Shown here piece after piece: positions 884-3,233 of a DNA stretch of 64,000 nt. Every line of letters starts with the position of its first letter. The stretch's first letter is position 1. The notes under the pieces are model-generated. The model was not told where the DNA came from. It saw only the letters and a program-made list of their open reading frames with translations, and did not search any database. This DNA is from Melioribacteraceae bacterium. GTDB taxonomy: Bacteria; Bacteroidota; Ignavibacteria; Ignavibacteriales; Melioribacteraceae. The stretch spans positions 1-64,000 of the forward strand of contig JAIPBD010000003.1 in assembly GCA_021739765.1 (NCBI GenBank), written 5' to 3'. A program made the position numbers and the translations under genes.

Positions 884-1100
884 GCACCTAACAAGCAACT
901 CAACCGGACGCCGTTTTCAATTTGGCATCTGTGTAGTTCTTAAGTTTTGTGAAACAAACAACATTGCTGTTAGGCGGCAATTGTAAAAACTAAATTGTAG
1001 CAACCGGAAATTGCGTTGAAAATTAATCACCGGTTGCATAAACTTTGGTGTAGTCTTATTAATCGGCATTCCAGTGTTGGGGCGCCGGCTAGTTGCCACG
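884..1100 (+). other. attC-like recombination site B, interrupted by an IS
   Basis: The left box GCACCTAAC (884-892) is the exact reverse complement of the cassette's own start at 321-329. The left arm 895-912 pairs with the right arm 1081-1096: 15 pairs, one mismatch, and bulged C901 and A908. C901 is at the same arm position as the bulged base of site A. The normal right end is missing at 1100 and reappears at 2601 as CCGTTAGCC. Joining CACG (1097-1100) to CCGTTAGCC restores a right end like that of site A (GCAACGCCGTTAGGTGC). The inserted 1,500 bp is the IS listed below. Confidence 0.7.
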
Positions 1101-1116
1101 GTAAATTAGAAAAGAA

Positions 1117-1196
1117 GGTCTCACAAACTTTGAAGGTGCATATTCCGAATAAACGGAATAAATTATAGCATCTCATACAAAGTAAGGAGACCTAAA
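1117..1196 (+). promoter_or_regulatory. Structured leader over the recombinase ribosome site
   Basis: AGGTCTC (1116-1122) is complementary to GAGACCT (1187-1193), which contains part of the AAGGAG ribosome site just before the ATG at 1197. Inside lies a perfect 7-bp hairpin (TATTCCG 1141-1147, CGGAATA 1154-1160, 6-base loop). Folding would hide the ribosome site and limit recombinase translation. GGTCTCACA is also one half of the element's subterminal repeat, so the sequence may serve both purposes. The structure is visible; the regulatory role is inferred. Confidence 0.4.
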
Positions 1197-2258
1197 ATGA
1201 ATGAAATAAAATTAAAAGTAAATCACTCCAATGACAACAACGATTATCCCAATTTTATTGATCAGTTTGACCATTTTATCGGAGTTGACTGGTCAATGAA
1301 AAATATGTCCATTGCAAGGCTGACAAAAAATATGATTGCCCCTAAAGTAATAGATGTACAAACAGATTTATCGGACTTAAAACATTATCTGAGAAATCTA
1401 ATAGGGGCAAAAATACTCACAATTGAAGAAACAACATCAAGTCATTGGTTATACGTCGAACTTTACGATTATGTGGATAAAATAGTGATCTGTGACCCAT
1501 ACAGAAACAGACTTCTTAGTGAAGGGCCCAAGAACGATAAAATAGATGCCGGTAAACTGACTTTGTTACTCAAAAACGGATTACTCAAAGAAGTATATCA
1601 CACAACCGATTCATTATATGAGTTAAGAATGCTTATCAGTGCCTACAATGATCTTGTCGGTGCTGGTGTAAGGCTACAGAATCAAAAATCTGCTATATAC
1701 CGGGCTGAGAACAAGTCGCACAAAAAAGATAAAATTAAAATCAAGAATTTTATTTTAACACAACTTGATGATAACATTGAGAATTATTACAATAAAAAAA
1801 AGCTATATGAAGTTTAATTTGAAAGAATAGTTAGAAAAAATAAAACCCTAAGAAACTTAAAAACCATTCCGGGAATTGGAACAATTAGCTGTGTTACGAT
1901 ATTGGCTCATGCAATTGATTCTAAAAGATTTAAGAAACCAAGTAATTTCTTAAGTTATTGCGGGTTGGTAAAGCATGAAAAATTTAGTGGTGGCAAAAGT
2001 TATGGTAAAAGAACCCCTAGATATTCCAGAAAACTAAAAAGCGTTTATAGATCAGCTGCATTGAGAAGCATTTGTTATAATAGTCCGATAAAGGATTACT
2101 ATGATCACTTAATAGATGAGAAAAAATTAACCGATCAAAAAGCTAGAAACATGGTCGCCAGACATATAGCTAAGATAAGTTTGGCAATAATAAAAAACGG
2201 AAAAAAATATAAACCTTACGAAAAAAGCAAAAAAATATTGAAGGAAGCGGCGGCATAA
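1197..2258 (+). pseudogene. IS110/IS1111-family recombinase, interrupted by in-frame stop
   Basis: One continuous frame of 353 sense codons encodes an IS110-type recombinase but carries TAA at codon 207 (1815-1817). The first part is the DEDD (RuvC-like) domain, with acidic residues in FIGVDWS, TIEETTS and KNDKIDA. The second part is the Transposase_20 domain, with the IPGIG motif and FSGGK, whose serine (about codon 264) is the expected covalent nucleophile. The two halves are in the same frame with nothing lost, so a single base change such as CAA to TAA explains the break. A strong AAGGAG precedes the start. Readthrough would be needed for a full product. The downstream half opens only from a TTG at 1902 and is not a separate gene. 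Confidence 0.85.
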
Positions 2259-2533
2259 AAATAGCAGCTAATAGGATGTTGTTAGTATACTGAAAAAGGA
2301 ATACTAAATAGTGGGAGACAGAGTTCATAACGGCGTGTGAAGTTCTGTACAAAACAGAAACATTCCAACGCAACGGTTAACCGCTCATATGTTTTTACTA
2401 AAATTTGCCGCAGCCTAAAAAGAGCTCAAATAGACGCGTAGTAAAACAAGCTATAAATTATTATTCGTGCAAAATAAGGAGGACTAATTAACAAACACTA
2501 ATGACAAACGGCGATTAATTTTGATGTGAGACC
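2259..2533 (+). ncRNA. Candidate bridge/seek guide RNA of the IS
   Basis: IS1111-type elements encode a guide RNA downstream of the recombinase. This stretch has no reading frame and several hairpins. TTAGTAT (2282-2288) pairs with ATACTAA (2301-2307). A second hairpin spans 2318-2348: ACAGA/TCTGT and TTCA/TGAA stems enclose the loop TAACGGCGTG (2328-2337). That loop is the exact reverse complement of CACGCCGTTA, the sequence formed when the bases flanking the IS are rejoined. A looser same-sense copy of the target occurs at 2368-2382 (ACGCAACGGTTAACC). Possible donor guides are CTATAAATTA near 2450 and CTAATTAAC near 2485, resembling the element ends. RNA ends are not determinable by eye. 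Confidence 0.55.
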
Positions 2534-2602
2534 AAAGTTAAGAGATTGAAAATTATCTCAGCGGAAATCTCTTTTCTCTTGACTTTCTTTTCTATAGACG
2601 CC

Positions 2603-2610
2603 GTTAGCCT
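2603..2610 (+). other. 5' boundary of the HigBA cassette (core box)
   Basis: GTTAGCCT is the right core box of the attC-like site split by the IS and also the start of the next cassette. Its exact reverse complement, AGGCTAAC, stands at 3308-3315 on the far side of the HigB/HigA pair. That is the expected relation between the two ends of one integron cassette, which form a single site when the cassette circularises. Confidence 0.6.
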
Positions 2611-2623
2611 TCTAATTAAGATT

Positions 2624-2935
2624 TTAGGAAGAGATGGTACGAGCGATATCCTTATTTGAAGTTCCAAGTGCTAATAATGATCTAATTATTAAATCTAGAG
2701 AAACAGATGGATCACCGGTTTCAAGCTTTGCCACACGTGATTGGCTAGATTTGATAATCTTTGCAAGTTCAACTTGTGTTAATTTTCGCTCTGTTCTTAG
2801 TTTCCTTAAATTAGAACTAAGTTTTATTTTAAGTTCTATATATGATGATGATTCTTCTGACAAATTTAAGAATTCTTTGGCTGAACCAATCTTCCAACCC
2901 TTTTTCTCTAAGTTTTGTTGTTTCTGTTTATCCAT
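2624..2935 (-). CDS. higA: HigA-like XRE antitoxin
   Basis: A helix-turn-helix of the XRE type lies near the C-terminus (LRTERKLTQVELAKIIKSSQ with SRVAKLETG following), the arrangement of HigA antitoxins paired with Gp49-like toxins. The chosen ATG at 2935 gives MDKQKQQ and has AAGGA about 8 bases upstream; an ATG at 2941 is possible. A longer upstream frame to 3016 only overlaps the toxin and adds a basic low-complexity stretch, so it was not used. The gene overlaps the end of higB by 8 bases, so the two are translationally coupled. It should repress the promoter at 3266-3294 and neutralise the toxin. Confidence 0.85.
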   Translation of the reverse strand: MDKQKQQNLEKKGWKIGSAKEFLNLSEESSSYIELKIKLSSNLRKLRTERKLTQVELAKIIKSSQSRVAKLETGDPSVSLDLIIRSLLALGTSNKDIARTISS

Positions 2936-3233
2936 TGTCATATTCCTTAATTCTCTTTTTACTAATTTCAATAACTTTTTTAGAAGTTTGTTGAGTTTTC
3001 TTGTTAAATACTTCAAGAATTATTATCGCATCATCATCAATTCTATAGATTATTCGCCAGGTACTTCTTCCATCATTAATCCTAAGTTCATGGCAATTGG
3101 AACCAATACTGGGCATTGGTCTCGAATGAGGCATTTTCAACTTTTCTCCGATCTGAAGAAGTCTGAGAAGAAATCCAGCTTCTATTCTAGCAGTTGAAGA
3201 AAATGGAGGAGTTTTAATTTCTCCATGCACCAT
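2928..3233 (-). CDS. higB: HigB/RelE-like toxin, Gp49 family
   Basis: The 101-residue product belongs to the phage Gp49-like HigB group of RelE-fold mRNA interferases. Diagnostic stretches are the early helix FLLRLLQIGEKL, the PMPSIGSNCHELRI block, and the strand region WRIIYRIDDDAIIILEVFNKK that leads to the basic C-terminal helix with repeated lysines. Toxin-first order is typical of HigBA. The start at 3233 is the first ATG after the promoter and operator. The pair is bounded by complementary 8-base cassette ends. A 187-residue plus-strand frame across the same DNA is an antisense shadow. Confidence 0.88.
   Translation of the reverse strand: MVHGEIKTPPFSSTARIEAGFLLRLLQIGEKLKMPHSRPMPSIGSNCHELRINDGRSTWRIIYRIDDDAIIILEVFNKKTQQTSKKVIEISKKRIKEYDNG

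Follow-up and report, generated by a model that had tools for sequence, protein, structure and literature searches.

A mobile element that carries, in its own noncoding tail, the exact complement of the site in which it sits raises the question of whether the tail encodes a guide that led the element there. Such an insertion sequence lies near the start of the window, the whole 64,000-nucleotide stretch of a Melioribacteraceae genome analysed here. When its flanks are rejoined, CACG (1097-1100) and CCGTTA (2601-2606) give CACGCCGTTA, the exact reverse complement of TAACGGCGTG in the tail; the original prediction had described this match, and both the sequence and its positions were confirmed. 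TAACGGCGTG complements the top strand across the CG core together with 2 nt of the target on its left and 6 nt on its right. Taken alone the match is suggestive, and it was the covariation of guides with targets across the family that settled the question. The element is very probably an IS1111-type insertion sequence in which a tail RNA guides a DEDD transposase through two target guides and probable donor guides, with exchange at a CG dinucleotide.

By its sequence the element is a member of the IS110/IS1111 superfamily, its DEDD transposase having the IS110 N-terminal and the IS116/IS110/IS902 C-terminal domain. The first piece of the interrupted gene matched Pfam DEDD_Tnp_IS110 (PF01548, 34.5 bits, cut-off 29) and the second Transposase_20 (PF02371, 63.1 bits, cut-off 21.3). 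With the NCBIfam model transpos_IS110 (cut-off 140), the relative L006 scored above the cut-off (159.4), while L004 (131.9) and the second piece of the window gene (69.7) scored below it. The transposase is similar to those of IS621 (E 8e-12) and ISCro4 (E 2e-11), and it gave a profile match to IS4321, the only IS1111 member compared (probability 96.6%, identity 20%). As in IS1111 elements, most noncoding DNA lies downstream of the gene, where it covers 342 bp (2259-2600); only 96 bp lie on the upstream side. The IS1111 C-terminal motif GL-P----S(t)G was found in part, with GL and SG or TG correctly spaced and the P absent in six aligned relatives. With its transposase gene broken, the window copy is probably no longer mobile by itself.

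The window element is the sole match in its 4.5-Mb genome, and the same insertion, stop codon included, occurs on a 5-kb contig labelled Bacteroidia bacterium (L022). Searches of three overlapping genome sets gave relatives in 12 of 395 for the phylum (E 1e-10), 8 of 165 for the order and 25 of 392 for the class (E 1e-30 for the last two); the right-end motif, allowing up to 2 mismatches, occurred in 22 of 392. As labelled in the records, the clade comprises Bacteroidota plus one Bacteriovoracaceae and one Desulfobacterales genome. It is diverse, with a median transposase identity of 46% over 78 pairs (highest 65.5%). Among viral contigs, 34 candidate stretches yielded no relatives, and 489 plasmid records, all below 60% identity, were left out of the analysis.

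The extent of the element was established by comparison with these relatives, and the flanks assumed in the original prediction proved to be right. The ends N-TAAATTAG and CTTGACTTTCTTTTCTATAGA (right end ...CTATAGA), or near variants of them, are common to relatives at unrelated sites. Genome G302 holds four copies inside a repeat, together with the empty form of that repeat, AATCCGCGGGCCATT (L136). By themselves the four copies leave the left edge unfixed, because their identity continues into the shared target; the empty L136 and the filled L006 differ in having a single CG when empty and a CG at both edges when filled. The window likewise has CG at 1099-1100 and at 2599-2600, on both element edges, and reads TTGCCA-CG, element, CG-CCGTTAGCC. 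Among the tabulated relatives the left-flank core was CG, except for TG in L118, and the right-side core was CG, CA or TG. The subterminal inverted repeat is 10 bp long in the window, within the 7-17 bp range of IS1111 elements. It was the longest repeat found (8-11 bp) in 10 of 13 members, the script having picked another repeat in L115, L118 and L023. The repeats stand 6 bp from each edge in 9 of the 13, and 5 and 5 bp in L025, with one core copy counted at the right. These distances depart from the IS1111 rule, which has 7 (or 6) bp beyond the repeat on the left and 3 bp on the right; with the core copy counted at the left instead, they become 8 and 4.

Features of the insertion sequence and its target site (window positions, forward strand read 5' to 3')
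Feature	Position	Strand	Basis or remark
Insertion sequence, 1500 bp with one CG core copy	1101..2600	+	Ends common to relatives elsewhere; empty site in G302
Left target part, CG core at 1099-1100	1084..1100	+	Includes CACG at 1097-1100
Left subterminal inverted repeat TAGAAAAGAA	1107..1116	+	6 bp off edge
Leader hairpin covering transposase Shine-Dalgarno	1116..1193	+	GGTCTC 1117-1122 with GAGACC 1187-1192
IS110-type transposase gene, in-frame TAA at 1815-1817	1197..2258	+	Pfam domains; same stop in L022
Outer stem 5' arm, around both target guides	2312..2317	+	Weak in window copy
Right target guide TAACGGCGTG	2328..2337	+	Exact complement; covariation in relatives
Left target guide AACGCAACGG	2367..2376	+	Left-flank sense; 6/10 positions match in window copy
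Outer stem 3' arm region	2383..2389	+	Weak in window copy
Probable donor guide AATTTGCCG	2402..2410	+	Complement of left end CGGTAAATT, one G-T
Probable donor guide ATAGACG	2430..2436	+	Identical to right end plus core
TGTGAGACC, able to pair with leader arm 1117-1125	2525..2533	+	Perfect 9-bp inverted repeat with GGTCTCACA
TTGACT, -35-like box	2579..2584	+	17 bp from TAAATT (1102-1107) in circular form; putative promoter role
Right subterminal inverted repeat TTCTTTTCTA	2585..2594	+	6 bp off edge
Right target part, CG core + CCGTTAGCC	2599..2609	+	Includes CCGTTA at 2601-2606

We parsed 22 tails via adjoining conserved motifs. For the first guide, the 12 nt that follow the motif were compared with the right flank; for the second, the 10 nt that precede TTAACC (or a similar sequence) were compared with the left flank. 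The permutation test had one row per independent target (n=14). Outside it are L003, L004, L096 and L097 (the window's target class), L014, L018 and L021 (RNA the same as in L006) and L024 (a near copy of L023). Outside the table are L112, L117, L005, L113, L119, L087, L123 and other right-end-only or fragment loci, with an end or tail missing or anchors that could not be parsed (L117 has a right end and an unparsed tail).

Guides follow targets. Over the 14 independent targets the first guide matched its own right flank over a mean run of 7.64 nt, versus 2.91 nt for foreign flanks (0/20,000 permutations), and in none of the 14 was it beaten by a foreign target. Leaving aside the two core bases, the runs were 6.07 versus 2.75 nt, with the own target best in 13 of 14 (0/20,000 permutations). 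In fixed register, and for members with a readable left flank, the second guide matched its own target at 7.33 of 10 positions against 4.18 for foreign ones (own best in 8/9, 0/20,000). The pairs can be read directly, e.g. ATAACATGCA with GCATGTTAT in L106, AGCCCTTTCA with TGAAAGGGC in L111, AACACCAACA with TGTTGGTGTT in L118 and ATCCGGCTCG with CGAGCCGGA in L025. First-guide runs were short in L108 (4), L116 (5), L097 (4, a guide mismatch) and L018 (5, a target mismatch); in L003 and L096 the left guide agrees with the flank at 5 of 10 positions, and in L088 the insertion point lies two bases away from where the guide match would put it. That the loop would change in step with the insertion site had been put forward from the window alone, and it does so; the accompanying idea of a guide programming the site is supported by this covariation, but with two target guides instead of one.

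Two further observations concern particular loci. L087 and L088, in one genome, are right ends of a near-identical element, followed by AAGGGAT in one case and by GGAAGGGAT in the other. The window element lies three bases deeper into its attC-like site than L003, L004, L096 and L097; the first guides are nearly identical, and the left guide of the window differs from theirs in accord with the three-base offset.

The tail was also expected to hold a conserved structure, specifically a hairpin presenting the ten bases as its loop. Four closing pairs are possible in the window, but predicted folds skip them, and only 5 of 18 relatives form them, all at attC-like sites, so that this hairpin is not a conserved structure. 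An outer stem around both target guides is conserved: 16 of the 18 members have five or more Watson-Crick pairs in it, the exceptions being the window (3) and L096 (4). Its forms include GGGAG/CTCCC, GGAAGAG/CTCTTCC, GAGAAG/CTTCTC and CGGAGTG/CACTCCG. RNAalifold on a MAFFT alignment of the tails returned 4 consensus pairs; this alignment misaligns the outer stem, and the arms were therefore anchored and compared by permutation, own arms scoring 5.89 and exchanged arms 4.52 (0/20,000 permutations). The stem is thus kept through paired changes, and the expectation of structure holds for the family but only weakly for the window copy. The window tail folds no better than its shuffles (z 0.40), and shorter pieces gave z values of -1.51, -0.37 and -1.19 versus shuffles.

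Downstream of the target guides, the tails of relatives carry stretches like AATTTRCCG, which complement the left end, and ATAGACG, which has the same sequence as the right end; their counterparts in the window are probably donor guides. It is also conceivable that the RNA is a short seekRNA with the two target guides only, AATTTGCCG and ATAGACG being conserved for a reason unrelated to the donor. Published seekRNAs of 70-100 nt suffice for movement (PMC11187229). Moreover, with element ends that barely vary, few changes underlie the donor covariation, and at several donor-guide positions the match fails in L088, L089, L115 and L023. Against this, the few changes there are tend to appear in both the guide and the end: ATAGGC (L106 and L025), TTTATCG with CGATAAA (L006 and L025), and CCA with TGG (L118). 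Donor pairing has been published for bridge RNAs (PMC11208160). We consider the short form the less probable of the two, though a serious contender, and retain the reading with probable donor guides.

A chance match, found through looking, was far less credible. With 266 10-mers in 2259-2533 and one given 10-mer on one strand, the match has a chance of about 2.5e-4, which rises to about 5e-3 when either strand and any of the nine 10-mers spanning the junction may match; the loop first proposed is, besides, missing from predicted folds. Guide-target covariation over 14 independent targets refutes coincidence for the family, and we regard it as highly improbable for the window. Equally implausible is a shorter element, 1117-2533, whose wrong edges would have made the rejoined target an artefact: GGTCTCACA and TGTGAGACC do form a perfect 9-bp inverted repeat, but the sequence outside them is common to relatives at unrelated sites, and the empty and filled sites of G302 put the edges at CG. 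Two readings of these repeats had been considered. One, in which they were the edges and the site formed a single long attC hairpin, was ruled out by the shared ends of relatives lying outside them; the other took them as subterminal repeats with long extensions, possibly a new variant, and was ruled out when subterminal repeats were found nearer the ends.

As to the nature of the target, the originally suggested attC site is likely, as is a cassette array, but neither is proven. The site resembles an intact TTGCAACGCCGTTA at 311-324 in the same window, and four relatives have attC-like right flanks, AACGCCGTTA. Pairing of the expected attC arms (881 ff.) scores -25.1, against -17.6 ± 3.4 for shuffled sequence; two neighbouring sites give -25.7 versus -16.1 and -15.3 versus -12.4. 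A blind scan leaves the assignment unproven (window z -1.1); L106 and L024, whose sites are not classed as attC-like, scored -3.3 and -3.5, and the scan is therefore unspecific for attC. An integrase model stayed below its cut-off in the window genome, equally so in all 14 control genomes. The small minus-strand genes around the element (546-845, 2624-3016 and 2928-3233) may be toxin-antitoxin genes, by their resemblance to a kind that integron cassettes often carry. Four other loci (L098, L099, L104 and L105) have a right end of the element but no neighbouring transposase gene, and are remnants of earlier insertions; three of these right ends are followed by attC-like sequence containing CGTTA and the fourth by a looser CATTA form.

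The other end of the element has a structure of its own. The leader of the transposase gene folds at -27.8 kcal/mol; shuffled sequences averaged -9.38 (sd 2.65), and none of the 200 was as stable (z -6.95). Among 20 leaders (the window and 19 relatives), each of the six predicted closing pairs is retained in 18-20 of them; at two of these pairs, both partners have changed in 4 sequences. Single folds of the relatives mostly agree, that of L112 being weak (z -1.9, simple shuffles). The leader of IS4321, the single control, gave no such fold (-14.1 versus -12.5, sd 2.8). The stretch 2525-2533, shortly after the guides, is similar to the Shine-Dalgarno arm of this hairpin, and in all 13 members examined 6-12 nt located 60-87 bp from the right edge can pair with the leader arm (in a different register in L089). 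Own pairings scored 8.0 and exchanged ones 5.97 (1/20,000 permutations; 56/20,000 with one member for each of six sequence classes). Together the hairpin and its covarying downstream sequence suggest translational control. It is possible, though we hold it only tentatively, that the hairpin buries the transposase Shine-Dalgarno throughout the clade and that the downstream arm pairs with the leader instead and frees it, so that transposase would be made from RNA with a complete guide. Opening by the downstream arm is an inference; such a switch, if true, would couple transposase synthesis to guide synthesis. A limited literature search on IS110 leaders and transposase translation showed no description of such control among the papers listed.

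By analogy with characterised systems, the tail RNA would be transcribed and bind the DEDD transposase, and the two target guides, one for each DNA strand, would lead it to the insertion point. The donor guides would probably pair with the joined element ends of a circular form, and strand exchange at the CG dinucleotide would leave CG on both edges. The circle junction would bring together TTGACT and TAAATT at 17 bp, a promoter-like arrangement of the sort reported for IS1111 elements (PMC11187229).

The element is new and the guide principle already known, the mechanism having been published in 2024 (PMC11187229, PMC11208160); guide order in IS1111, natural target change and attC-directed members are likewise in print (PMC11187229). 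What the clade adds is a guide code readable from genomes alone, in 14 targets and the guides that match them, with ends and core in common. Collections of this kind reveal how transposases led by a guide switch targets in nature, and they supply natural guide-target pairs for tests. IS1111 elements with a seekRNA (ISEc11, ISKpn4, ISPst6, ISPa11; PMC11187229) are alike in their DEDD transposase, downstream noncoding tail, subterminal inverted repeats and natural target change through guide change. Their guide order is also the same, a top-strand complement before a bottom-strand match, and this order, with the covarying target guides, supports the original comparison with the guide RNAs of IS110/IS1111 elements. 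They differ in that the repeats stand 7 and 3 bp from the edges, versus 6 bp from each edge here (one core copy), and in the P of the GL-P----SG motif, where this clade has K; these departures in motif and end length may mark a subgroup. The leader hairpin is absent from IS4321, the sole canonical element tested. By their description in the same source, the attC-inserting members ISKpn4, ISPst6 and ISPa25 similarly insert at one end of an attC-like site, whereas the present clade belongs to Bacteroidota (by the label of L022) and its close relatives use other targets too. With IS621 and the IS110 bridge RNA (PMC11208160), the element shares target and probable donor guides and a dinucleotide core on both edges; in contrast to IS621, its RNA is in the right end and not the left, the guide order is reversed and the core is CG.
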